Below, piece by piece: positions 3,506 to 51,010 of a stretch of DNA of 64,000 nucleotides. Location: the NCBI GenBank assembly GCA_017936785.1, contig JAGBEV010000009.1, positions 1 to 64,000 on the forward strand, read 5' to 3'. Source of the DNA: Lachnospiraceae bacterium. Its GTDB lineage: Bacteria > Bacillota > Clostridia > Lachnospirales > Lachnospiraceae. Each line of letters begins with the position of its first letter. Position 1 is the stretch's first letter. The position numbers and the translations under genes were made by a program. The notes below the pieces were generated by a model, which saw only the letters and a list, made by a program, of their open reading frames with translations, was not told the DNA's origin and made no database searches.

Positions 3506-5938
3506 ATGGCCTATACAGATAATGCAAAAGCCGCATTAGCGCTGGCAAAAAGAATGGCCAGAACCACCGGGCAAAATTATATCGGTACGGAGCATATCCT
3601 GTTAGGATTGTTAAAACAGCAAAGCGGTGTTGCTGCCAGGATTCTGGAGGCACACGGAGTTACTACAGAGCGTGTGATGGAGGTGATCAGGGAATTGATC
3701 GCACCATCAGGAGCAGTTTCTTTATTGGAAAGGGACGGCTATTCCCCAAGAGCAGTGCAGATCCTGGAAGAAGCGGATAAGCAGGCAGCAAGATTCGGTT
3801 CTGTGGGAACAGGTACGGAACACATTCTTCTTGCCATAATCAAGGAAGGGGATAATATTGCTGCAAGGCTTCTTTATACTTTGGGCATCAGCCTGCAGAA
3901 ACTTTATGTAGATACGCTGATCGCTATGGGAGAGGATGCTAATCTTGCCAAAGAAGATCTGAATCCCAAAAAGAAAAAGAATCCTACAAAAACCCTGGAT
4001 CAGTACAGCAGGGATCTGACGGGGCTTGCCAGAGAAGGAAAGCTGGACCCGGTGATCGGCAGGGAAAGTGAAATCCTTCGGGTAATCCAGATCCTGAGCA
4101 GGAGAACCAAAAATAACCCCTGTCTCATTGGAGAACCGGGGGTGGGAAAAACAGCCATTGCGGAAGGGCTTGCCCTTCGAATCGCAGGAGGAGATGTACC
4201 GCCTACCATCAGCAGGAAAAGAGTTGTTACCCTGGATTTATCTGCTATGGTGGCAGGAAGTAAATACCGTGGTGAATTTGAAGAGCGTATTAAAAAAGTA
4301 ATCGGAGAGGTCATTGAAGACGGCAATATTATTCTGTTTCTGGATGAGATCCATACGATCATCGGAGCAGGAGGCGCAGAAGGAGCCATTGATGCTTCCA
4401 ATATCTTAAAGCCTTCTCTTGCAAGAGGGGAAATTCAGCTCATAGGAGCTACCACCATTGAAGAGTACCGCAAATATCTGGCAAAAGATGCAGCTCTTGA
4501 AAGACGTTTCCAGCCGGTCAATGTAGAAGAGCCTACAGTCAGTGAAGCCGTAGAAATTCTCAAAGGCATCAAACACAAGTATGAGGAGCATCATCAGGTG
4601 ACCATTTCCGATGAGGCTATTGAAGCGGCGGTGAAATTATCCAAACGTTATATCAATGACAGAAATCTGCCTGATAAAGCTATCGATCTCATTGATGAAG
4701 CAGCGGCGGCGCTGCGGTTAAAGGGCATGAATCTGCCGGAAAAATGCAGGGAACTGGAAGAACAGATCAGGGCTATGGACCTGCAGATAGAAAGATCCTT
4801 CAAATTCGATGCCTTTTCTCAGGCTCATGAGATTAAACTGGCACAGGATGAGCTGGTAAAAAAATACAACCGTTTAAAGGCGCGTCACGAAAAGAAGATG
4901 ACAGACCGCAGTCTGGTCATTTCGGAAAATGATATTGCCGATGTGGTATCCATGTGGACGAAGATTCCGGTCAGCAAGCTGGCGGAAAAAGAAAGCGAAC
5001 GGCTTTTGAAACTGGAATCCATTCTTCATAAACGGGTGATCGGACAGGAAGAGGCTGTAACGGCAGTTGCAAAGGCAATGAGAAGAGGTCGTGTAGGTCT
5101 TGCCGATCCCAATAAACCCATTGGTTCCTTTTTATTCCTGGGACCTACCGGTGTGGGAAAGACAGAACTCAGCAAGGCTCTGGCAGAGGCTATGTTCGGT
5201 TCCGAAAGCGCTTTGATCAGAGTGGATATGTCCGAATATATGGAACCGCATTCCGTAGCTAAAATGATCGGTTCCCCTCCGGGGTATGTAGGTCATGACG
5301 ACGGCGGACAGCTTAGTGAAAAGATCCGCAGGAATCCGTATTCTGTGGTGCTGTTTGATGAAATAGAAAAGGCACATCCTGATGTGTTCAACATTTTGCT
5401 GCAGGTGCTGGATGAGGGACATATTACTGATTCCAAGGGAAGAAAGGTCAACTTTAAAAATACCATTCTGATCATGACCTCCAACGCAGGAGCTTCCCGC
5501 ATTGTGGAGCCTAAGAATCTGGGATTTGCGGCGGAGACCACAGAAAAGCAAAATTACGAAAAGATGAAAAACGGCGTTATGGAAGAGGTAAAGCGCCTGT
5601 TTAAGCCGGAATTTATCAACCGTATTGATGAGATCATGGTATTCCACCAGCTTACCAAGGGCGATATGACCAAAATAGTTACATTGCTGTGCAAAAATCT
5701 ATGTGCACGATGCAAGGTGCAGATGGATATTGACCTGACCGTAACAAGTGCGTTAAAGGATTATATCGTAGACAAATTTACTGATCTGAAAATGGGTGCA
5801 AGACCTTTAAAAAGAGCTATTCAGACGGAGATCGAGGATGCTCTGGCAGAAGAGATCCTGGCAGGAAAGATCAAACAGAATACCAGGGTCAGTGCAGGCG
5901 TGCACGATAAAAAAGTGACCTTTACAGTAAAGGAATAG
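3506..5938 (+). CDS. clpC: ATP-dependent Clp protease ATP-binding subunit ClpC
   Basis: AAA+ unfoldase that feeds proteins to ClpP. The 810 residues have two N-terminal Clp repeats (1-140), a first AAA domain with Walker A GEPGVGKT near 209-216 and Walker B ILFLDEIHT, a middle helical region (about 415-470), and a second AAA domain with GPTGVGKTE near 546. An LGF tripeptide near residue 671 fits the ClpP-docking loop. The short middle region favours ClpC over ClpB. The usual ctsR-mcsA-mcsB genes are not upstream, but radA follows two genes later as in many Firmicutes. A mecA adaptor gene lies at 32.2 kb. Confidence 0.95.
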   Translation: MAYTDNAKAALALAKRMARTTGQNYIGTEHILLGLLKQQSGVAARILEAHGVTTERVMEVIRELIAPSGAVSLLERDGYSPRAVQILEEADKQAARFGSVGTGTEHILLAIIKEGDNIAARLLYTLGISLQKLYVDTLIAMGEDANLAKEDLNPKKKKNPTKTLDQYSRDLTGLAREGKLDPVIGRESEILRVIQILSRRTKNNPCLIGEPGVGKTAIAEGLALRIAGGDVPPTISRKRVVTLDLSAMVAGSKYRGEFEERIKKVIGEVIEDGNIILFLDEIHTIIGAGGAEGAIDASNILKPSLARGEIQLIGATTIEEYRKYLAKDAALERRFQPVNVEEPTVSEAVEILKGIKHKYEEHHQVTISDEAIEAAVKLSKRYINDRNLPDKAIDLIDEAAAALRLKGMNLPEKCRELEEQIRAMDLQIERSFKFDAFSQAHEIKLAQDELVKKYNRLKARHEKKMTDRSLVISENDIADVVSMWTKIPVSKLAEKESERLLKLESILHKRVIGQEEAVTAVAKAMRRGRVGLADPNKPIGSFLFLGPTGVGKTELSKALAEAMFGSESALIRVDMSEYMEPHSVAKMIGSPPGYVGHDDGGQLSEKIRRNPYSVVLFDEIEKAHPDVFNILLQVLDEGHITDSKGRKVNFKNTILIMTSNAGASRIVEPKNLGFAAETTEKQNYEKMKNGVMEEVKRLFKPEFINRIDEIMVFHQLTKGDMTKIVTLLCKNLCARCKVQMDIDLTVTSALKDYIVDKFTDLKMGARPLKRAIQTEIEDALAEEILAGKIKQNTRVSAGVHDKKVTFTVKE

Positions 5939-15821: not shown

Positions 15822-16415
15822 ATGGGAGAAAAATCGGTCAGGAAGAAACAGTTTATTTTAAAGAAAGCAAGGGAAGTCTTTGCCGAGCGGGGCTATAAGG
15901 ATGTTACCATGAAGGATATCGTGGACGCATGCCAGATCAGCAGAGGCGGTTTATATTTATATTTTGACAGCACAAAAGAAATTTTTTTGGAAGTACTGAA
16001 TATGAAGGAAGGCTCTGAAAGCGGAGAAGAGGATGTATTTACAAAGGCGATCAGTGAAAATGCGTCCAGCTCCGATATTCTTGCCCTGTTTTTGCAGGAG
16101 CAGAAAAAAGAGCTGTGCAATCAGGCAGAAAGCCTGACCATGGCAACTTATGAATTCTTTTTTGCAAATAAGCTGCCTAAAAATGAGAATCCTCTGAAAA
16201 CCCAGTTTGACGGTGCGGTTCAGATCATAGAAAAACTGATTTCAGATGGTGTGAAAACAGGAGAATTTGTCTGTGAAGACCCCAAAGGGGCATCCAGAAA
16301 TATCATGTATGTTCTGGAGGGCTTAAGGATCATGTCCCAGACGGTGGGGATTACGGAAAAAGCTGTCAATAAAGAGATCCTTTATCTGATGAAGGGACTT
16401 TTAAAAGAAGCATAA
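15822..16415 (+). CDS. TetR/AcrR family transcriptional regulator
   Basis: The 197 residues have an N-terminal helix-turn-helix (ILKKAREVFAERGYKDVTM, then ISRGGLYLYF, residues about 12-55) and a variable ligand-binding C-terminal domain. The divergence-free arrangement with the preceding gene suggests autoregulation through the dyad at 15250. The ligand is unknown. The following aspartoacylase-like genes start 14 bases later and may be in the same regulon. Confidence 0.9.
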   Translation: MGEKSVRKKQFILKKAREVFAERGYKDVTMKDIVDACQISRGGLYLYFDSTKEIFLEVLNMKEGSESGEEDVFTKAISENASSSDILALFLQEQKKELCNQAESLTMATYEFFFANKLPKNENPLKTQFDGAVQIIEKLISDGVKTGEFVCEDPKGASRNIMYVLEGLRIMSQTVGITEKAVNKEILYLMKGLLKEA

Positions 16416-41234: not shown

Positions 41235-41708
41235 TTATATCAGTTCAATGATACCTAAAGATGGTTCAAAATAAATAATATAATTCAGATATCTGGCACA
41301 GACACCGTATTTTTCCCGATAATAGGAAAGGGCGTCAGTTAGAAATTCTTCTGTGATATTTAAATACTCACATATTTCAGAAGCAGTACGGCAGCCATGG
41401 GAGAAGGAAGCCGTCAGTCCCTGCAAGCCGATCATTTTGTCATATGCCCATATTCTTGCCAGGCGTTCCTGCTTTCTGTTCAAAAAGACGGTCTGATCCA
41501 TAATGTCCCCGGCAGTAGTATGAAAGTGTCCTAATTCCTCTGCAAGGACACAGCCTTTTTCCACCTGGGTCATGTCTTTCTTTATGGCAATTCGTTTTCC
41601 TTTGATCCTGCCCTTATTGGCAAGGAGAGCTTTTTCTTTTGTCAGTAATCCTTCCTGATCGGATTCTGTCAATAACTGTTCATATGTCATAGTTATCACC
41701 GGTTTCAT
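41235..41708 (-). CDS. ImmA/IrrE-family metallopeptidase-like protein
   Basis: 157 residues with the motif LAEELGHFHTTAGDI at the metal-binding helix; the first zinc-binding His of the classical HExxH is Glu, a frequent phage variant. Proteins of this type pair with XRE repressors and remove them during induction of ICEs and prophages. It lies 30 bases after the repressor gene in the same minus-strand operon. The N terminus may start at the second Met (MTYEQLLTESDQEG). Confidence 0.82.
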   Translation of the reverse strand: MKPVITMTYEQLLTESDQEGLLTKEKALLANKGRIKGKRIAIKKDMTQVEKGCVLAEELGHFHTTAGDIMDQTVFLNRKQERLARIWAYDKMIGLQGLTASFSHGCRTASEICEYLNITEEFLTDALSYYREKYGVCARYLNYIIYFEPSLGIIELI

Positions 41709-41738
41709 TGTATAAAAATTTCTGTCCGAAAAAACGGA

Positions 41739-42230
41739 CTAGAAATTTTCATCATCCATGATCTGATCATCATGCGCCTGTGCTTCAGGGGTAGCAGACG
41801 GATCTGCATGTGCGGCATTGATAAAGATTTCCTTAGAGAAGTCTGACTTTGTATTTATAAGTTTATCCGGTGCAGCCAAAGCTGTAGGAGCGGTTGCTTC
41901 ACTTTGATGATTTCTTGCGTGTTCACGGTCAATGAGGATTCTGATGGTTTCCTTTCCATACTCATCCAGTTCCCGGTATTTTTCCAGATATTCATATTCT
42001 GATAAAGAAATGATGTTGTTTGTTTTAGACTTTACCATATCCTGAAAAAGATAATTGGCATCTACATCCAAAGCATCCAAGAGCCTGTATATAACAGGTT
42101 CTTTGGGATGGCTGGTTTCCTTTTCATAATTGGTGATGGCGGAACCTGTCACGCCGACTAATTTACCTAACTCAGTCTGGGTCAGTCCCAGATGTTCCCT
42201 GGCTTCTTTTATTCTGTATCCAATTCCCAT
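41739..42230 (-). CDS. XRE-family repressor of the tail cassette
   Basis: 163 residues with an N-terminal helix-turn-helix (IKEAREHLGLTQTELGKLVGVTGSAITNYE) and an unrecognised C-terminal extension. It is transcribed divergently from the SOS-controlled small gene and the tail operon, as a lysogeny-type repressor would be. GGAAAGG precedes the ATG. Confidence 0.88.
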   Translation of the reverse strand: MGIGYRIKEAREHLGLTQTELGKLVGVTGSAITNYEKETSHPKEPVIYRLLDALDVDANYLFQDMVKSKTNNIISLSEYEYLEKYRELDEYGKETIRILIDREHARNHQSEATAPTALAAPDKLINTKSDFSKEIFINAAHADPSATPEAQAHDDQIMDDENF

Positions 42231-42255
42231 AGCGTTTACCTTTCCTTTCCTATTT

Positions 42256-42284
42256 AATATAACTCATGTAATTTGAAATGTAAA
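42256..42284 (-). promoter_or_regulatory. repressor promoter
   Basis: On the minus strand TTTACA (42284-42279), 17 bp, TATATT (42261-42256), just upstream of the XRE gene. Confidence 0.65.
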
Positions 42285-42763: not shown

Positions 42764-42834
42764 AGCGGATTAGTGTAAAGGAAGCACACGAGTCTCCTTA
42801 GCTTGTAGTCGGGGTTCAACTCCCCGGTCCGCAA
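42764..42834 (+). tRNA. tRNA with anticodon CCT, initiator-like acceptor end; proposed AGG initiator tRNA
   Basis: A 71-base cloverleaf: D-stem GTGT with GCAC, anticodon stem CGAGT with GCTTG, loop CTCCTTA giving CCT, variable TAGT, and T-arm CGGGG-TTCAACT-CCCCG. Position 1 is A and 72 is A, so they do not pair. Then come G2:C71, C3:G70 and G4:C69, and the 3' end reads GCAA, all as in bacterial tRNA-fMet formylation determinants. It lacks the three G-C pairs of the initiator anticodon stem and has U11:A24. A20, C35 and U36 fit ArgRS recognition. CCA is not encoded, as in the other tRNAs here. It reads AGG, the triplet found at four start sites in this operon. A plain phage tRNA-Arg remains the alternative. 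Confidence 0.7.
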
Positions 42835-42882
42835 TCCCTAGCTATGGAAAACAAAAAAGACGGAAAGGAGGAAAAATGTAAA

Positions 42883-43293
42883 ATGACTGTTTCACAAGCG
42901 ATCGTGACGTTGTTGTCCGGGAATGGAAAATTTGAAATTGATAAGGTTCATGCTTTGGACGGAGCCGATCAAAATGGATTAAGCAGAAAGCCGGAGAGAG
43001 AAGTCAAAAATCTCATCGATGGAACATATGAGATCACAGAACAGTACAGCTTTACAGCAAAGCAGAAGGTTTCGGCAGGAACTGAAAGAATGGAAACGGA
43101 TGCATGGCTGGAAGAGTTTATATACTGGGTGGATGATACATCTTATTACAATGATTTCCCTGAGCTTGGCAGCGGCAGAAACATTGTCAGTATGGAAATA
43201 GCAAAAGCATCATGTTCCATAGCAGCGGAAGATAATGAAACAACATATCAAATGTCATTATCTGTTACATATACAAGAGAAAGAGAGGATTAA
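42883..43293 (+). CDS. tail terminator / minor tail protein
   Basis: 136 residues beginning MTVSQAIVTLLSGNG, with DGTYEITEQYSFTAKQKV and a C-terminal YQMSLSVTYTRE. This matches the pattern of siphophage tail-completion proteins (called minor capsid in some databases) that cap the tube. AAAGGAGG lies 11 bases before ATG 42883. An ATG at 42844 has no ribosome site. First protein gene after the tRNA. Confidence 0.72.
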   Translation: MTVSQAIVTLLSGNGKFEIDKVHALDGADQNGLSRKPEREVKNLIDGTYEITEQYSFTAKQKVSAGTERMETDAWLEEFIYWVDDTSYYNDFPELGSGRNIVSMEIAKASCSIAAEDNETTYQMSLSVTYTRERED

Positions 43294-43295
43294 TC

Positions 43296-43775
43296 ATGGA
43301 AAGATTAAAAAAACACAAAACAATACCTTTTTTAAACACTTCCGACACAGCGGAAGCAGCTTATGCAAGAATCGGGAGGTCAACAGTTTTTGACCTGATC
43401 CTGAATGCAACTACAGAAACCAATGATTTTATTGAGGACGAAATGCCTACAGAGGATGTGAAGTATTACAGTCCGGAACTGTCTCAGGAATTACAGTGTA
43501 ATAAAGGCGATGAAGCTTTTGATTATCTGTATGAAATGTTCTTTAATCTGCCTACAGGAGAAGAAGTTAAGAAAAATATGCTCCTTGTGTTCGCAGGCAA
43601 TGAAGGCACGGATGAAGTGCCTAAGTATCGTGCATGGAATACCCAGTCCACACTGATTCTGGATCATTTTGATTCTGTAGCGGAAAAAATCTATTTTAAG
43701 TTCAAGATCTTCAGCATTGAACGGGGAACCTGTACTGTAACGGATAAAGTTCCCACATTTACAAAAACAGCTTAG
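43296..43775 (+). CDS. major tail tube protein
   Basis: 159 residues with the tail-tube pattern of siphophages: an N-terminal loop (KKHKTIPFLNT), a beta-rich core and VKYYSPELSQELQCNKGDEAFDYLY. It would polymerise into the non-contractile tube around the tape measure. No sheath gene follows, so the tail is flexible or non-contractile. Start ATG after GAGGA. Confidence 0.8.
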   Translation: MERLKKHKTIPFLNTSDTAEAAYARIGRSTVFDLILNATTETNDFIEDEMPTEDVKYYSPELSQELQCNKGDEAFDYLYEMFFNLPTGEEVKKNMLLVFAGNEGTDEVPKYRAWNTQSTLILDHFDSVAEKIYFKFKIFSIERGTCTVTDKVPTFTKTA

Positions 43776-43786
43776 GAGGAAAGAAA

Positions 43787-44191
43787 ATGCAGTATACAGC
43801 AATTATTAACAGCCGTTCTTATGATTTGCCCAAAAGAACTCTCAGGATCGCAGAGGAAATGGAAAACATTATCAAAAATGATGGAATGAAGGGCGTAAAG
43901 CTCAGAAACAAATTCCAGGCGGTACTGGATTTTATCAGAAAGACTCTGGGAGAAGAAAATACAAGAGAAATTTTGGGAACAGACAATCTTGATGAAATGG
44001 ATATGTCGGAACTGACGATTGCATTCAGAACTATTTTTGATGCATATAAAAAGCCTGTTAGTGATTACAATGCAGAGCAGGCAAGAATGTCGTTTGACAG
44101 TCTGCCTGTAGACAAGATTTCCAAGCTTTCCGAAGCATCTGCCAGAATCGCCAGTATGGCAGCAGAAGCAGAGGCAAAGAAGAACTTATGA
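43787..44191 (+). CDS. tail assembly chaperone (gpG-like)
   Basis: 134 helical residues (YDLPKRTLRIAEEMENIIKND; FQAVLDFIRKTLGEENT). By position between tube and tape measure, and overlapping the next frame by four bases, it corresponds to the first tail assembly chaperone. TAGGAGGAAAGAAA precedes ATG. Confidence 0.78.
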   Translation: MQYTAIINSRSYDLPKRTLRIAEEMENIIKNDGMKGVKLRNKFQAVLDFIRKTLGEENTREILGTDNLDEMDMSELTIAFRTIFDAYKKPVSDYNAEQARMSFDSLPVDKISKLSEASARIASMAAEAEAKKNL

Positions 44192-44730
44192 TGGATCTGA
44201 CAAAGGCGGCTTTACCTAATACCGTAGAGGTAGGCGGTAAAGCCTACTCCGTCTACACTGATTTCCGCCTGTGGATGAAGTTTGAAATCACTTTGTCCCA
44301 TATGAAAAGCGGAGATCATATAGAGGTTGGATATCTTTTTAAAAACGAGATGCCATTATTTTGCCCATTGGAGGAATTGACGGCATTCAGCAGACCTAAA
44401 GACCCGCTTCCAAGGGCTATGGGAAAAAGTGATGTGATAGTGCTGGATTATGAACTGGACGCAGATTTGATCTATGCAGCCTTTCTGGGGCAATATGGAA
44501 TTGATCTTTTGAAGGTGGAAGACATGCACTGGTATCAGTTTCTGGCACTTATAAAAGGGCTGAATGAGAGCACGAAACTTCGTGAGGTTATGGGATACCG
44601 ATGCTATGAAAGCAGAAATGATTCCAAAAGAAATCCTTATGAGGAGCTGAGGGCGATGTGGGAAATTGAAAGGATCTCACAGGAAGATGAGGCAGAGTTA
44701 ATGGAATTTAGCAAAATATTTGAGAGGTAA
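44188..44730 (+). CDS. Gp15-family tail assembly protein
   Basis: 180 residues beginning MDLTKAALPNTVEVGGKAYSV, typical of the bacteriophage Gp15 family found between chaperone G and the tape measure. It probably serves as the second chaperone (gpGT equivalent). It begins at an ATGATG that overlaps the upstream stop. Confidence 0.85.
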   Translation: MMDLTKAALPNTVEVGGKAYSVYTDFRLWMKFEITLSHMKSGDHIEVGYLFKNEMPLFCPLEELTAFSRPKDPLPRAMGKSDVIVLDYELDADLIYAAFLGQYGIDLLKVEDMHWYQFLALIKGLNESTKLREVMGYRCYESRNDSKRNPYEELRAMWEIERISQEDEAELMEFSKIFER

Positions 44731-44735
44731 GGATA

Positions 44736-46553
44736 AGGGCAAATGGAATATTAAAACTAATTGATTTAGATGCAACTAAAATATTATCTGAGCTGGGAAA
44801 AGAACTATTGGACATAGCTAATAATGCAATGAAGGCATTTGCTAAATCGGCTACGGCAGCAGCAGGGGCAATGTATGAACTTGGTGTAAGTGCTATTGAA
44901 TATAATGCTGCAATGGAACAATATGAACTTTCCTTTGAAATGATGCTGGGAAGTTCTGAGGAAGCAGCGGAGGTTATGGAGAATCTGAAAAATCTCAGTG
45001 CGGATACAACCTTTGGTTTTGAAGATCTGGCTTCTACAACCCAGCTTTTAATAAATTATGGATTTACCATAGAAGAGGCTCAGGACAGTCTGATGATGCT
45101 TGGAGATATCTCACAGGGATCGGCAGATAAACTGAAATTGGTCGCAGAAGCATATGGACAGATGTCATCAGCAGGAAAAGTACAGCTTGATGATATACAG
45201 CAATTGATCAATGCAGGATTTAATCCGCTTCAGGAAATATCTGATAGTACGGGAGAGTCCGTGGAATCTCTTTATCATAGAATTTCTGAAGGCACTCTTT
45301 CGGTGGATGAGATTACGGATTCCATGCAGAGAGCCACTTCTGAAGGTGGTGCATTTTTTCAATCCATGGAGAAACAGAGCCAGACTGTAAACGGGCAGCT
45401 TGAAATGTTAAAAGAAAACTTTCAAATTCTGACAGGAGAGGTATTTGTCGGGGTATCTGAAGACATTGGAGAGGAATTACTGCCTATGGCTCAGGGATGG
45501 GTAGACCAGCTTTCTTTGGCATTTGAAGAAGATGGAATTGTAGGTCTGGCAGGCGCCATTGGGAACGTGTTGGCTGAGATCGCAATATTAGCGGCGGAAT
45601 ATGCCCCCCAGATAGTTGGTTTTGCAGTAGAAGTAATTCAGGCATTATTGGATGGCATGCAGGAGAATTTACCGCAGATCATGGCGGGCGTAGTTGTCAT
45701 TATTGATGCGCTCATTATGGGGTTTTTAGAAATACTTCCACAGTTGCTGGAGGTGGGAGCAGAAGCCATTGTATTATTAAACGCTGGAATGACAGAATCT
45801 TCACCAATGATTTTTCGAAAAATTATTGAGATTGTAGGCAATATGGTAAGCACATTTATTAAAAACATACCAATGTTATCAGTAGTTGGTCTTGAAATTA
45901 TTACAAACTTAATAATTTCTCTTTTGTCAAACTTGCCTTCCTTTTTGACAATAATACCTGATGTAGCTTTTCAGATACTAAATGTATTTTTAGCGCAGGC
46001 ATATTTATTTTTTGATGTTGGAACAAAGTTTTTGGCAAATATAATAGATGCTCTTGGAGGAGATTCAGAAGGAATAAAAAATTTTGTTATCAACTGGGTT
46101 GATAATTTAGTACAGAACTTTAAGGCGCAGCATCCACTAATTTCCGGTATAGGAAAGGCTATCATAGATGGCATTCAGAGTGGTATGACTAGCGGATGGA
46201 ATGGACTCATGGATTATGTTGATAATTTGGCAAATAGTATGCTTAAAGCAGCAAAGAAAGCTCTTGGTATTAAATCCCCATCCAAAGAATTCGCCTACAT
46301 CGGCAGAATGTGCGTAGCTGGCTGGGAACAGGGAACGGAAGATTTATTTGCAGCCGATAGTGTGACCAAAAATGTCAAAGCAACATTAGGAAACATTCAG
46401 GCAAACCTCGGCGGAGGGACATCCGGTACCCATGGCGGATATACCCAGGTCATTAATGTGAACAGGGAAATCGCTACTCCCGATGAACTGGCAAGAGCCG
46501 TAAGGGTAGAGAGCAGATATGGATTGATGAGAGGAGTGGCATATGGATACTAA
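44736..46553 (+). CDS. tape measure protein with apparent AGG start codon
   Basis: Sets tail length and threads through the tube. The frame encodes about 605 residues with EYNAAMEQYELSFEMMLGS, DISQGSADKLKLVAEAYGQMSSAG and a hydrophobic central region (about 270-450). The coding frame starts with R/M-ANGILKLIDLDATKILSELG at 44736, where the codon is AGG, eight bases after GAGAGG. The upstream in-frame stop is TGA 44721-44723 and no ATG, GTG or TTG occurs before TTG 44808, which has no good ribosome site. About 605 residues is short for a phage tape measure, which implies a short tail. Confidence 0.85.
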   Translation, partial: RANGILKLIDLDATKILSELGKELLDIANNAMKAFAKSATAAAGAMYELGVSAIEYNAAMEQYELSFEMMLGSSEEAAEVMENLKNLSADTTFGFEDLASTTQLLINYGFTIEEAQDSLMMLGDISQGSADKLKLVAEAYGQMSSAGKVQLDDIQQLINAGFNPLQEISDSTGESVESLYHRISEGTLSVDEITDSMQRATSEGGAFFQSMEKQSQTVNGQLEMLKENFQILTGEVFVGVSEDIGEELLPMAQGWVDQLSLAFEEDGIVGLAGAIGNVLAEIAILAAEYAPQIVGFAVEVIQALLDGMQENLPQIMAGVVVIIDALIMGFLEILPQLLEVGAEAIVLLNAGMTESSPMIFRKIIEIVGNMVSTFIKNIPMLSVVGLEIITNLIISLLSNLPSFLTIIPDVAFQILNVFLAQAYLFFDVGTKFLANIIDALGGDSEGIKNFVINWVDNLVQNFKAQHPLISGIGKAIIDGIQSGMTSGWNGLMDYVDNLANSMLKAAKKALGIKSPSKEFAYIGRMCVAGWEQGTEDLFAADSVTKNVKATLGNIQANLGGGTSGTHGGYTQVINVNREIATPDELARAVRVESRYGLMRGVAYGY

Positions 46554-47406
46554 AGTAACAGTAAAATTTATCAGGGAGGATCAAAAAGAATTTACCATAG
46601 ACGGAAATGACTGGAAGATACCTTCCGACGGACTTGAGGGATTCGGCACCTTTGAAAATGATATCAGTACAGTGGACAATGCAGTAGGAGACGGCGGGAT
46701 CATCACTTCAAGCAGGATCGCCCAGAAGGACCGGACGATTACGGCAAAGTCCAGAAATCCCTGCTTAAACGATGTATTAAGGCGTTCAGCAATATCGTTT
46801 TTTAATTCAAAATTTACATACAGGATTTTTGTGACCTATATGGGAATAACCAGGTGGTGTGAAGGAAAAATTTATAAATTTAATCTTCCCAACGGAAATG
46901 TACACAGGACCATGGATATGACAGTGACCTTTTTGTGTCCGGACCCCTATCTGAAAAGCTATGAAGATTTCGGAAAAAATATTGCTTCTGTAGTGGGAAT
47001 GATTGCATTTCCCTACCTTTGCAGAAAGGAACAGGGAATAACCGGCGGCAGATTTCATTTTGCCAAAAAGGTAGTACTGGAAAATGACGGTGATGTGGAA
47101 ACCTATTGTAAAGCTGTCTTTACGGCGAAAGGAAGAGTACAGAATCCAAAACTGATCATGGATGGGTCATTTGTAAGAATCATTGATGAAATGGCAGAAG
47201 GAGATGTGATCATTATTGATTTTACCAGCAATCCGCCAACAGTGGAAAAGAATGGGACCAATTTTATCGGTCATTGTGACAGGAGATCGTCTTTTGACGA
47301 AATGATCTTAAAGGTGGGAGATACAGAAATTTCCTTTGATGCCGATGATGGATCAAATTTACTGGATGTTTCCATTTATTACAACAAATTGTATGGTGTC
47401 ATGTAG
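46543..47406 (+). CDS. distal tail protein (Dit-like)
   Basis: 287 residues (TVKFIREDQKEFTIDGNDWKIPSDGLEGFG) with the layout of siphophage Dit proteins that join tube and tip. It overlaps the tape measure by 11 bases and has a normal ATG after GAGAGGAG. Confidence 0.8.
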   Translation: MDTKVTVKFIREDQKEFTIDGNDWKIPSDGLEGFGTFENDISTVDNAVGDGGIITSSRIAQKDRTITAKSRNPCLNDVLRRSAISFFNSKFTYRIFVTYMGITRWCEGKIYKFNLPNGNVHRTMDMTVTFLCPDPYLKSYEDFGKNIASVVGMIAFPYLCRKEQGITGGRFHFAKKVVLENDGDVETYCKAVFTAKGRVQNPKLIMDGSFVRIIDEMAEGDVIIIDFTSNPPTVEKNGTNFIGHCDRRSSFDEMILKVGDTEISFDADDGSNLLDVSIYYNKLYGVM

Positions 47407-47417
47407 GAGGGAGATCA

Positions 47418-48533
47418 AGGAAATCATTTAATGTAATCGCTTTGGATGCAGATTTTAATATCATTTCCCTGCTTCGTTATACCAACCTGCAGTGGAATAG
47501 AAAATATTATGAAACAGGTACTTTCTCGGTGCAGATACCTCTGGAGCAGTATTCTTCTAAGATCAGACATATTTATACTAAAGACAGACCGGAGCTGGGA
47601 GTGGTGACACAGATAAATTATGTAAACCAAAGAGGCTATCGGAATGTGCAGTTGAGCGGATATTTTCTGGAGAAGGAATTGGGAAGGCGGATCGTATATC
47701 CCTATGCTAAGGTTACTAATATTAAAAATGCGCCTTCCTGGACTGTTCAAAGGGGAAAGGCGGAAAGTGTAGCTTTTGCATTTTTTAATGGGTTTAAAGA
47801 TTTAGTATATACAGATATACACACACCTGATGATCCACCCCTTTACAGCTGTCTGGGAATTGTTCCGGGAACGGATTACGGCAGGGGAAATAATACGGAG
47901 CAGACCAGAAAGGACGAAGAACTGGATAAAAAAATTTACAGTATTTTAAAGCCTTCCGGGATGTCATACCGGATCAGTTATGATTTTGATGAGAACAAAA
48001 AAGTGTTTCAGGTATGGAGCGGTGTGGACAGGCGGCAGGAACAGAGTGTCAATAATCCCATTGTTTTTTCAACCAAATACGGAAATATTAAAAACCCCAA
48101 TATTGTGATCAGCGATACCGATTATAAAAATGCTGTAATAGAACATGCGGATTACCAGAATGCTTCAGGTGAAGATATTACCAAGGTCATGGTTTTTGTA
48201 CCATATGACAGACCTGCGGATAATGATGATCACTTTGTTTATAAAAATTCCGGCATAAATCGAAATGATTATGATGAAGATTCATTTGATGATGCGCTCA
48301 GAAATGAAGCTTTTCTTCAATTGGAGAGTTTTAAGAAGGATTTCAATGTGGAATTTGATGCCATGGAAGGAAGTTACCGATATATGACGGATTTTGACCT
48401 GGGTGATAATGTCAGCATTGAAATTCCTGAAATTGATGTATCCGGTGAAGCCAGGCTGATCGGATGCTATGAAGTAATCAAACAAGGAGAATGGTCTCTG
48501 ACATTGGAATTCGGAGAACCAATCATAAAATAA
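47418..48533 (+). CDS. tail-tip protein (ReqiPepy6 Gp37-like) with apparent AGG start codon
   Basis: About 371 residues: LDADFNIISLLRYTNLQWNRKYYETGTF at the N terminus, followed by the repeated baseplate-hub-like fold to DFDLGDNVSIEIPE and GEWSLTLEFGEP. The conserved beginning KSFNVIALDADF is in frame directly after AGG 47418, seven bases after AGGAGG, whose SD overlaps the Dit stop codon. The first conventional start is TTG 47442 without ribosome site, which would remove eight residues of conserved sequence. Confidence 0.85.
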   Translation, partial: RKSFNVIALDADFNIISLLRYTNLQWNRKYYETGTFSVQIPLEQYSSKIRHIYTKDRPELGVVTQINYVNQRGYRNVQLSGYFLEKELGRRIVYPYAKVTNIKNAPSWTVQRGKAESVAFAFFNGFKDLVYTDIHTPDDPPLYSCLGIVPGTDYGRGNNTEQTRKDEELDKKIYSILKPSGMSYRISYDFDENKKVFQVWSGVDRRQEQSVNNPIVFSTKYGNIKNPNIVISDTDYKNAVIEHADYQNASGEDITKVMVFVPYDRPADNDDHFVYKNSGINRNDYDEDSFDDALRNEAFLQLESFKKDFNVEFDAMEGSYRYMTDFDLGDNVSIEIPEIDVSGEARLIGCYEVIKQGEWSLTLEFGEPIIK

Positions 48534-48548
48534 AAGGAGGACAAATAA

Positions 48549-49820
48549 AGGATAGGATTTCCATTTAATTCACATGTAACTTATGAAAATGACGGGACAC
48601 CCGTTTATGACAGGGCAGTTTCATCAGCACCCCTTAGGACACTGATCGGAAAACTGGTAACAGACGGGGTGCTGCCCAACCCCTCAAGCAACCTGCAGGT
48701 GTCTGCCGGTACGGGCATGAGCGTGGTCGTTTCACCGGGATTTGCTATTGTAAATGGTTGCCTGAAACTGGAAGAGACGCAGAGGATCCTTGCCATACAG
48801 TCATCCGGCACTTCTTATGACCGTATCGATACGGTAGTCATGCGGCTTGATGATAATGATGAAGCAAGAAATTGTGATCTATACGTATTAGAGGGAACAC
48901 CGGCAACAAGTCCGGTCAGACCGCAACTGACACGAACAGGTACTGTTTGGGAAATCGGTCTTGCGGATATTTTTGTGGCAAAGAATACAGCAGCAGTTTC
49001 CAATCAACGGATCACGGATACCAGATATGAGACCTCCAGATGTGGGGTGATATCGTCCATCAGCCGGTTTGATACCACAACTTTATATCAGCAGGTGCAG
49101 TCTGATCTGGCAGAATTCCAGAATGTAAGTGAAACTGAGTTTTTGTCTTGGTATAAAAATATCAAAGAACAGCTTTCGGAGGATGCAGCAGGTAATTTGC
49201 AAAATCAGATAGGTAATCTTGAACAGTTGGGAACTATTGATAAAGTCAATTTAGTAAATGCAATCAATGAAGTAGTAGTATCTACAGAGTCTGTTTCTAC
49301 TAATATTGAGAATGTGAAAGTAAAAGCAGACAGTGCAGCGAAGGAAGCTGCAACAGCTGATTCTGCAGCGAGAGATGCCAAAAGTACTGCGGAAGAAGCA
49401 ACAGTTACTGCAAATTCAGCAACTGCTGCAGCAAATTCAGCGACTGTTGTGGCAAATAATGCGCAAAGTATGGCTGCTAATGCCATAGAAAAAGCTAACA
49501 GTGCATCAGCGATAGTAGCAGGACTTCAAAATTATATTACTTTTATTCCGAATATGCAGCTAAAACCTACAATATTAGAGTGGGCAAAAGAGTGTAATGG
49601 ATTGATGATAGGAATGATGGTGAATCCCTATAGACCAGGTGACGGACCGGAAATGGTAGTAACAAACGTGTCGGAATGGACAATTCTTGTTTTGGGACAA
49701 CCGGGAAATAAATCTCGTCAGACTGTAATCGCATTTGGCTATGGCGGTGGTGTGGCAGCAACTTTAAAAAGAAATATTTGGGATGGAAACTGGCAGGGAA
49801 GTTGGGCTGCTATTGCATAA
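48549..49820 (+). CDS. receptor-binding / tail fibre protein with apparent AGG start codon
   Basis: About 423 residues. The N-terminal region (IGFPFNSHVTYENDGTPVYD, then NPSSNLQVSAGTGMSVVVSPG) is a common attachment module of Firmicutes tail proteins. An Ala/Ser/Thr-rich coiled coil (about 210-320) and a C-terminal binding head (YITFIPNMQLKPTILEWAK onward) follow. The frame is closed by TAA at 48546-48548, and the next codon is AGG 48549, eight bases after AGGAGG. The first conventional start (GTG 48669) would delete 40 residues of the conserved domain. Confidence 0.87.
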   Translation, partial: RIGFPFNSHVTYENDGTPVYDRAVSSAPLRTLIGKLVTDGVLPNPSSNLQVSAGTGMSVVVSPGFAIVNGCLKLEETQRILAIQSSGTSYDRIDTVVMRLDDNDEARNCDLYVLEGTPATSPVRPQLTRTGTVWEIGLADIFVAKNTAAVSNQRITDTRYETSRCGVISSISRFDTTTLYQQVQSDLAEFQNVSETEFLSWYKNIKEQLSEDAAGNLQNQIGNLEQLGTIDKVNLVNAINEVVVSTESVSTNIENVKVKADSAAKEAATADSAARDAKSTAEEATVTANSATAAANSATVVANNAQSMAANAIEKANSASAIVAGLQNYITFIPNMQLKPTILEWAKECNGLMIGMMVNPYRPGDGPEMVVTNVSEWTILVLGQPGNKSRQTVIAFGYGGGVAATLKRNIWDGNWQGSWAAIA

Positions 49821-49838
49821 AAGTTTATAGGAGAAAAA

Positions 49839-50111
49839 ATGGAGACGATTATTTCAAGTGTTATAAGCGGGCTTGTAGCATTATTTATCTGCTTGCTCAA
49901 TAACAGTTCACAAAAAAAGACATCAGATGCAAAAATGGATGAGACGGTTGCAATTATTAATGTGAAAATAGATAATCTTACTCAAAAGGTTGAGAAACAT
50001 AATAATATAATTGAAAGAACCTATAAACTGGAAGTGCAGGCTGCCCTTCAGGATGAAAAACTAAGGGTGGCAAACCACCGGATAGAAGATCTGGAGAAAG
50101 AGAGGGACTGA
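49839..50111 (+). CDS. XhlA-like small membrane/coiled-coil lysis protein
   Basis: 90 residues: an N-terminal membrane helix (ISSVISGLVALFICLL) followed by a coiled coil (MDETVAIINVKIDNLTQKVEKH). This resembles XhlA-type proteins that accompany holins. ATG after TAGGAGAAAAA. Confidence 0.7.
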   Translation: METIISSVISGLVALFICLLNNSSQKKTSDAKMDETVAIINVKIDNLTQKVEKHNNIIERTYKLEVQAALQDEKLRVANHRIEDLEKERD

Positions 50112-50112
50112 A

Positions 50113-50364
50113 AGGAAAAACGCAGAGTGGAAAAAGTGGGCAAAAGCGGCAGGCGTAAGGGCATTAAAAACCTTTGCGCAGACTGCAGTGTCCATGCTGA
50201 CAGTAGGGCAGGCTGTTATGGATGTAAATTGGATCAATGTGATCTCAGTATCAACAGTAGCAGGAATGATTTCCCTGCTGACATCTGTTGCCGGATTACC
50301 GGAAGCTGCACCGGTACACATGGAGAATATCAGGGAACAGGCAAAAGAGGAAAACAAGTCATGA
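50113..50364 (+). CDS. phage holin (r1t-like) with apparent AGG start codon
   Basis: About 83 residues. The sequence continues KNAEWKKWAKAAGVRALKTF, then two hydrophobic segments (AQTAVSMLTVGQAVM and WINVISVSTVAGMISLLTSVAG), the pattern of phage holins that permeabilise the membrane. Between the in-frame TAG at 50083-50085 and GTG near 50187 there is no ATG, GTG or TTG. AGG 50113 is six bases after GAGAGG at the expected N terminus. Its stop overlaps the lysozyme ATG (ATGA), which supports the frame. A GTG-started frame at 50127 is a shadow. Confidence 0.8.
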   Translation, partial: RKNAEWKKWAKAAGVRALKTFAQTAVSMLTVGQAVMDVNWINVISVSTVAGMISLLTSVAGLPEAAPVHMENIREQAKEENKS

Positions 50365-51010
50365 GATTAGGGATTGATGTATCAGACTGTCAGGGCGTCA
50401 TTGACTGGTCTAAGGTAAGGATGGCAGGCGTGGAGTTTGCCATCCTTAGAAGCACAAGAGGCAGTGGAAAACCGGATAAACAATTATCAGTCAATATTCA
50501 AGGGTGTCAAAACAATGGAATTCCCATAGAGTTTTACAAATACCTATATGCTATGACTAACTCGGAAGCTAAGAAAGAAGCTTTAAAAGTTGTAGAGGTA
50601 TTGAAACAGCGTGGTATGGAGCCGTCTCAGGATATGATAATCTGGGCAGATGTGGAATATAACAGGCTCCTTGCCCTTGGAAAGCAGGCTGTATAATTCA
50701 TGACAGGCTGTGGCTGGCAAGATATTATGCAGGTCATAGCAGGATGGCATTTGGAACTATGCCTGATGAGAGTAAAAAGCCTGTTGTGGCAGCTGGCTCT
50801 GCTTCAGCGCTGACAGGATGGCAGTTTACATCTTGCGGCAGTGTACCGGGAATCAGTGGAAATGTTGATCTGGATATCCGGTATACAGATGATAAAAATG
50901 TAGCAAAGAAGTCGGAGTGTTATCAAAAACCGGAATTTACACTGATTGAATGTCTGGATAAAATAGGGGTTGATGCTACTGAGCCTGCTTCTGGAAGGAA
51001 AATTGTATAA
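50361..51010 (+). pseudogene. GH25-type lysozyme (endolysin) with internal deletion and frameshift
   Basis: The first part (MRLGIDVSDCQGVIDWSKVR, then IIWADVEYNRLLALGKQAV) has the catalytic Asp and D-x-E residues of GH25 muramidases but stops at TAA 50694-50696. The other frame continues DRLWLARYYAGHSRMAFG and ends with the usual GWQFTSCGSVPGISGNVDLD. About 50-70 central residues expected in this family are missing at the junction. So the endolysin is probably inactive, unless the truncated product still works. Confidence 0.85.

Follow-up and report, generated by a model that had tools for sequence, protein, structure and literature searches.

Can an initiator-like tRNA carried by a phage open genes of that phage at a codon other than the usual starts? 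The question is raised by a tail operon at positions 42,764-50,364 of a 64,000-nucleotide stretch of Lachnospiraceae bacterium DNA (GenBank assembly GCA_017936785.1, contig JAGBEV010000009.1, positions 1 to 64,000, forward strand; the whole stretch is called the window here), where a first-pass annotation made from the sequence alone had proposed that a tRNA with anticodon CCU heads a run of genes, four of which begin at AGG. To our knowledge, a single class of initiator tRNA exists and also reads non-AUG starts. According to the available part of a published account (PMC11231383), protein synthesis begins with methionine in every domain of life. We find that phages and phage-like elements of Clostridia-type bacteria very probably carry a natural AGG/tRNA(CCU) initiation pair, a reading that rests on compared sequences: the cloverleaf fold and unpaired end of the tRNAs, their co-occurrence with AGG starts, and N termini at which AGG stands where homologues have ATG. 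With slightly less assurance, we consider it likely that these tRNAs form a second, orthogonal channel of translation start, in which phage-borne CCU initiator tRNAs open a dedicated AGG gene set. The first residue would probably not be methionine, and the channel would exist in many phages and perhaps also in other integrating elements.

The tRNA gene lies at 42,764-42,834 on the plus strand, as do all features of the operon given below. Found by ARAGORN and identical at 71/71 positions in the relative L002 (86% protein identity), it folds as a cloverleaf, has the anticodon loop CTCCTTA (U37) and does not encode CCA; its acceptor arm is initiator-like just as first described, with A1·A72 unpaired, followed by G2:C71, C3:G70 and G4:C69, and with A73. 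It heads a run of tail genes closed by a holin and a lysin gene. Four frames of this run have no ATG, GTG or TTG at their natural start and carry AGG there instead, behind a purine-rich Shine-Dalgarno (SD) sequence; the remaining tail genes start with ATG. The first is the tape measure gene (44,736-46,553; Pfam TMP_3 at 1.6e-28, residues 52-236), with SD GAGAGG at 44,722-44,727 and AGG at 44,736-44,738 (spacing 8 bases); a second in-frame AGG stands at 44,730, but the alignment of relatives (RANG / RADG, the RADG starts being those of L015 and G307) favours 44,736. The second encodes a siphovirus Gp37-like tail protein (47,418-48,533; Pfam Sipho_Gp37 at 3.3e-35, residues 9-367), with SD AGGAGG at 47,405-47,410 and AGG at 47,418-47,420 (spacing 7). 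The third encodes a phage structural, receptor-binding-like protein (48,549-49,820; phrog_1220 at 1.2e-50, and phrog_9534 at 7.9e-45 from residue 4), with SD AAGGAGG at 48,534-48,540 and AGG at 48,549-48,551 (spacing 8), and the fourth an r1t-type holin (50,113-50,364; Pfam Phage_r1t_holin at 2.9e-15, residues 8-62), where inspection places SD GAGAGGG at 50,100-50,106 and AGG at 50,113-50,115 (spacing 6). The family matches of the last three begin near residue 1 of the AGG frame; those of the tape measure do not extend to it.

Inspection, these Pfam and PHROGs assignments, and L002, in which AGG stands at all three of these genes present there, bear out the four AGG starts. The set of AGG genes varies between elements: the Gp37-like gene has ATG at the aligned position in L015, and the second tail gene (43,296-43,775; phrog_3099), ATG in the window, has AGG in its L015 and G307 orthologues; the receptor-binding-like gene keeps AGG in L015 as well. 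A survey of the whole window (63 open reading frames, ORFs) recovered three of the four AGG genes plus one false positive at 15,840 and missed the holin frame, the start calls coming from a simple caller (stop-to-stop frames, SD duplex energy) by which some genes are missed or mis-started; SD thresholds varied between analyses (-5, -5.5 or -7 kcal/mol).

AGG itself resembles an SD sequence, two of the window genes read AGGATA, and 11 of 1433 ORFs from 138 control loci pass the same AGG test, all of which would suit a different arrangement, with AGG belonging to an extended SD and the true starts lying at TTG 44,808, TTG 47,442, GTG 48,669 or an ATA beside the AGG. We regard this as very improbable. 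The standard alternatives in the window have weaker SD energies (-3.9 and -4.5, 0.9, -3.3 kcal/mol) than the AGG codons (-7.1, -10.7, -11.6 kcal/mol), and at the AGG position, or beside it, the homologues compared carry ATG, GTG or TTG. In strong-SD frames without a well-placed normal start, AGG occupies that place in 49 of 297 ORFs from 12 tRNA-bearing regions vs the 11 of 1433 in controls (Fisher p 6e-29). Among all SD-linked frames of tRNA-bearing loci, AGG (69/451) nearly equals ATG (76/451), whereas in controls it falls outside the 14 commonest codons. The ORF counts against controls and the Fisher tests likewise rule out chance as the source of the AGG starts. In 17 tRNA-bearing regions, 'clean' AGG calls were made for 64 of 408 ORFs, vs 27 of 2408 in 146 tRNA-less homologous loci, and by eye those 27 look like internal or wrong-strand frames.

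The presence of AGG at a given gene follows the presence of the tRNA. A search of viral contigs with only the N-terminal 100 residues of one tape measure protein gave 199 relatives; among the best 80, AGG stands at the start position in three, and within the stretches covered a CCU tRNA was found with those three only (0/77 others; p 1.2e-5). ATG occupies the position in 30 of the 80; the remainder carry different codons there, with ATG, GTG or TTG at the position or close by. The tRNAs linked to the three AGG tape measures have a different D arm and the same unpaired end, G2:C71, C3:G70 and CTCCTTA loop. For the capsid protein of L158, whose portal, capsid and major tail proteins match their families from the profile start, 68 of 71 homologues were readable (three were dropped as truncated), and two have AGG, both with the tRNA, vs 66 with ATG, none with it; the two AGG rows are the query and a previously found sister, so only the 66 negatives are independent. 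Stretches of at most 20 kb were the basis for calling the tRNA absent, and some viral records are fragments, which makes absence weaker evidence than presence.

Synteny gives the same picture. The genes for the terminase small subunit, portal, capsid, major tail and tape measure proteins all start with AGG in two tRNA-bearing phages, and with ATG or GTG in two tRNA-less phages with capsids 74-75% identical; the homologous starts printed for three tRNA-less phage stretches (L174, L175, L176) are ATG. The receptor-binding-like gene starts with ATG in L016 (MIGFPFDS vs RIGFPFNS), and no tRNA was found in that 5.7 kb contig. Among tRNA-bearing elements, reciprocal-best orthologue pairs divide into 17 AGG/ATG, 39 AGG/AGG and 63 ATG/ATG, pairs that are not independent and that count the window and L002 apart. 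In the 17 AGG/ATG pairs, three of them at 28-30% identity, the N termini coincide within three residues, as in MERLKKHKTIPFLN of the window and RERLKKFKTIPFLN of G307. AGG thus replaces ATG at homologous N termini behind an SD, as would a non-AUG start codon. Together with the co-occurrence of AGG starts and tRNA, this strongly supports, at the level of sequence, the original claim that AGG is a start codon read by an initiator-like tRNA(CCU).

The arrangement extends well beyond the window. Of 12 further tRNA-bearing records, 11 have strong-SD AGG starts; 63 of these starts lie on the tRNA strand and one opposite, beside 191 ATG starts on the tRNA strand of the same 12. AGG opens genes for both terminase subunits, portal, head protease, major capsid, major tail, tape measure and holin proteins, and 19 of 20 scanned AGG proteins (drawn from 72 listed) match packaging, head, tail or lysis families. 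On the tRNA strand, AGG genes extend as far as 5.6 kb upstream of the tRNA and 18 kb downstream of it. The tRNA was described as standing at the operon head; this is true of the window, but AGG genes also lie upstream of it in G299, G302, G305 and G307. Calls that look by eye like internal or wrong-strand frames were single ones in the tRNA-less annotated phages L174, L175, L177 and L179 and one each in L407 and L408; two calls in L058, which has a CCU tRNA with a paired end, were judged unconvincing by eye.

Phages often carry tRNAs, ARAGORN labels this one tRNA-Arg, and its 11:24 pair and anticodon stem are elongator-like. An ordinary elongator that compensates for the use of AGG as an arginine codon, with AGG at gene starts unrelated to it, would fit these traits, and internal AGG does run higher in some tRNA-bearing regions (3.0-12.0 per 1000 codons in 12 regions vs 3.2-6.7 in 12 tRNA-less ones); internal AGG is thus not depleted. 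The AGG share of arginine codons is nevertheless similar (0.09-0.22 vs 0.05-0.21), and a separate elongator tRNA-Arg(CCU) belongs to the host (L291), as had been presumed, with a paired 1:72 and A37; the window tRNA shows neither a paired 1:72 nor a purine at 37. Among all distinct ARAGORN tRNAs in 404 collected loci (179 in all), the mismatch occurs in 16 of 19 with anticodon CCU, in 9 of 22 with CAU (5 not judged) and in 1 of 138 others (15 not judged), the CCU tRNAs without it being those of L139 (A1:U72), L058 and the host elongator. The 16 mismatched CCU tRNAs are divergent, share G2:C71 and C3:G70, covary at their remaining acceptor pairs and co-occur with AGG starts. On the host elongator, codon usage and mismatch counts, we rejected codon compensation, which is, if anything, even less probable than the extended SD.

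Fifteen distinct unpaired-end CCU tRNAs, window included, were gathered by protein searches and by scanning viral contigs, and one genome from each species, for a sequence pattern, with CCU rather than CAU as the search criterion. Their alignment holds mismatch-bearing tRNAs only, leaving out the paired-end L139 and L058, so the absence of a 1:72 pair (0/15) is partly a matter of row selection. Position 72 is invariably A and position 1 varies (A, G or C), while the 20 other stem pairs are kept in 300/300 cells, both sides having changed at 13 pairs. G2:C71, C3:G70, G30:C40 and A73 are each present in 15/15, and the acceptor positions lie outside the search pattern; T11 was imposed by it on the tRNAs found that way. 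A tighter version of the pattern matched 16 viral stretches, 7 of them cloverleaf CCU tRNAs according to ARAGORN (L139 being one of the 7), and 12 genome stretches with 6 such tRNAs; a looser first pattern gave mostly random matches among those listed. A covariance model of the 15 tRNAs was run over 392 genomes of the order, with 12 candidates scored per genome and anticodons read for the loci returned; after the window, the best matches among those listed are an initiator-like CAU tRNA (G642), an initiator tRNA-fMet (G314) and a CCU tRNA in G591. The last is a sixteenth CCU tRNA with an unpaired end and has an fMet-like D arm, and AGG-start genes for the terminase small subunit and portal follow it.

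In 50,697 phage records, neither the window tRNA nor L194 DNA had a match. BLAST with the L146 tRNA at E up to 10 gave 162 records, the 30 matches listed being other tRNAs, mostly annotated tRNA-Met, and no match was obtained with a pattern built for the initiator tRNA of the host. Relatives retrieved with the gp37 and portal proteins were few. A tRNA-like gene with anticodon CGC adjoins the CCU tRNA in L028 (1104-1176, minus strand), which is unusual. In L145/L164, a CCU tRNA with the 1:72 mismatch (2387-2459) lies beside an apparently decayed prophage, where no AGG starts were found. Initiator-like CAU tRNAs with 1:72 unpaired (G·A or T·T) occur in phage or phage-like loci (L400, 14885-14958; L321, L324, L328 and L403), which suggests that such tRNAs may be ancestors of the CCU form.

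How might the pair work? An initiator-like tRNA with CCU in place of CAU, and genes with AGG in place of AUG, would together give the element its own initiation pair. Charging, formylation and use of the tRNA in the ribosomal P site are steps we infer. A host synthetase would charge the tRNA, most likely with arginine, although this is a guess; C35 and U36 favour arginyl-tRNA synthetase (ArgRS). The host formyltransferase may then recognise it through the weak or unpaired 1:72 and G2:C71/C3:G70, and the tRNA would be brought to the P site to pair with an AGG a few bases after the SD. Internal AGG would still be read as arginine by the host elongator tRNA. Because internal AGG is in use and the host has a tRNA-Arg(CCU) with a paired 1:72, AGG seems to be doubly read, like AUG. 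A search of five viral records, possibly fragments, for a phage-encoded formyltransferase or ArgRS gene found none.

In the available parts of published accounts, pairs 1:72, 2:71, 3:70 and 11:24 are given as formylation features and three G:C pairs of the anticodon stem as P-site features (PMC7949028, PMC11231383). Of the formylation features, the CCU tRNAs show those at 1:72, 2:71 and 3:70 and mostly lack that at 11:24; of the G:C pairs, only the middle one is invariant. They resemble bacterial tRNA-fMet in the unpaired 1:72, G2:C71, C3:G70, A73 and G30:C40, with an fMet tRNA among the best listed model matches, and differ in the CCU anticodon, the lack of the three G:C pairs, U11:A24 in 12/15, U37 and in being phage-borne. 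Engineered UAG-reading initiators start translation in Escherichia coli, according to the part of the account at hand (PMC11231383), and such initiators (UAG, CAC and others; PMC11231383, PMC13232202, in part) show likewise that an altered anticodon creates a new start codon; those are laboratory constructs, whereas the CCU pair appears natural and conserved, with a codon used by many genes.

Phages also recode stop codons by means of suppressor tRNAs. There, too, a phage tRNA alters the decoding of the phage's own genes, but in the present case the start signal would be affected and AGG stays arginine internally. The initiator tRNA of Mycoplasma pneumoniae reads AUG. It keeps the middle G:C pair, with AU/GC/GU at 29:41, 30:40 and 31:39 in the part of the source available (PMC10568206), compared with AU/GC/UG in the window tRNA, yet it serves a cellular genome and is not phage-borne. 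Phage tRNAs proposed to evade anticodon nucleases share the feature of anticodon-loop changes, but their decoding is unchanged, as understood from part of the source (PMC10264068). Among the papers listed by searches of the open literature, which leave subscription papers and most preprints outside, no title or abstract opening pointed to AGG starts in phages or to a naturally occurring phage initiator tRNA whose anticodon differs from the usual one.

Several observations weigh against the AGG/tRNA(CCU) pair as described. G304 carries the tRNA but shows no AGG start; by eye, this element looks decayed. The L139 element (G644, L405 = G644:C1) has a CCU tRNA at 5537-5610 with A1:U72 paired and G37, and its AGG-start genes at 5634, 7592 and 12623 encode a DnaD-like protein, a RusA-like nuclease and an integrase, none of them virion proteins; the 1:72 mismatch is therefore not strictly needed. 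In the tRNA, the elongator-like U11:A24 noted at the outset recurs, 11:24 being U:A in 12/15, window included, and A:U in 3/15, a count that the search pattern partly imposed. Charging by ArgRS had been argued from A20, C35 and U36, and while C35 is present in all aligned CCU tRNAs, A20 is found in only 2/15 (window and L150). U37, present in 14/15 (A37 only in L064), is an unusual base at that position of a tRNA. The early worry over the missing initiator-type G:C pairs also stands: 29:41 is G:C in 10/15 and A:U in 5/15, the window among the latter, and 31:39 is U·G in 11/15. In the available parts of the sources, an E. coli initiator with the three pairs changed to UA/CG/AU was inactive (PMC10486304), and efficient synthesis is said to require G29:C41/G30:C40 (PMC11231383). 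The invariant G30:C40 and the Mycoplasma pneumoniae stem soften this point.

What purpose would such a pair serve? The first proposal was a translational lock on tail completion and lysis genes; in a wider form, proteins for particle assembly would stay unmade until the tRNA is transcribed. A gate that holds back assembly proteins until late transcription suits the data because 19 of the 20 scanned AGG proteins belong to packaging, virion or lysis families and the AGG genes lie on the tRNA strand. The lock is plausible but not universal, given the AGG genes upstream of the tRNA in four elements and the DnaD-like, RusA-like and integrase genes of G644; we hold it as a tentative explanation, somewhat short of even odds. 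The same pair might also have arisen with no adaptive purpose, if an initiator-like phage CAU tRNA mutated to CCU, start codons then wandered between AUG and AGG, and the element came to depend on the tRNA. This needs a single base change each in anticodon and codon, and it agrees with AGG/ATG turnover between orthologues and with the initiator-like CAU tRNAs of other phages and elements. The bias of AGG proteins towards packaging, virion and lysis, the strand bias (63 vs 1) and persistence across divergent tRNAs speak against drift, which we consider possible though unlikely.

Doubtful, and less probable again, is counter-defence, in which the pair would allow initiation to survive nucleases that cut the anticodon loop of host tRNA-fMet. 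VapC toxins reportedly cleave initiator tRNA. Phage tRNAs have been proposed to evade anticodon nucleases (PMC10264068, in the part available), and such a role would account for AGG on essential genes of differing classes; on the tRNA strand of the same records, however, ATG genes outnumber AGG genes (191 vs 63).

If the AGG/tRNA(CCU) pair is true, a natural different start codon with a dedicated initiator-like tRNA breaks the rule of methionine and a single initiator, start codons are reassignable as stop codons are, and an evolved orthogonal initiation pair becomes available to synthetic biology. Gene callers limited to ATG, GTG and TTG would truncate or lose capsid, portal and tape measure genes in such phages.

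The other genes of the window operon start with ATG. Directly after the tRNA comes a tail completion protein gene (42,883-43,293; phrog_3266 at 1.7e-14); the second tail gene is followed by a third gene of the run without a family match in Pfam or PHROGs (43,787-44,191) and by a Phage_Gp15 gene (44,188-44,730; Pfam Phage_Gp15 at 5.9e-28, the protein scanned from 44,191). A distal tail protein (Dit) gene (46,543-47,406; phrog_33 at 1.8e-19) separates the tape measure from the Gp37-like gene, and a small phage protein gene (49,839-50,111; phrog_1863 at 1.8e-12) precedes the holin. A headless, tailocin-like tail element and a prophage remnant were both considered as possible identities of this run; no typical head gene was seen among the ten window genes scanned, some PHROG labels reading head protein and the neighbours being judged by eye. 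After the holin, a GH25-like lysin (50,361-50,696) stops in frame, and by eye a lysin-like reading resumes in another frame at 50,663-51,010; the interrupted lysin at 50,361-51,010 looks like decay or an assembly error. On the minus strand at 41,235-42,263, genes for an ImmA/IrrE-like metallopeptidase and an Xre-like repressor, again recognised by eye, are oriented divergently to the tail operon, an arrangement familiar from prophage switches.

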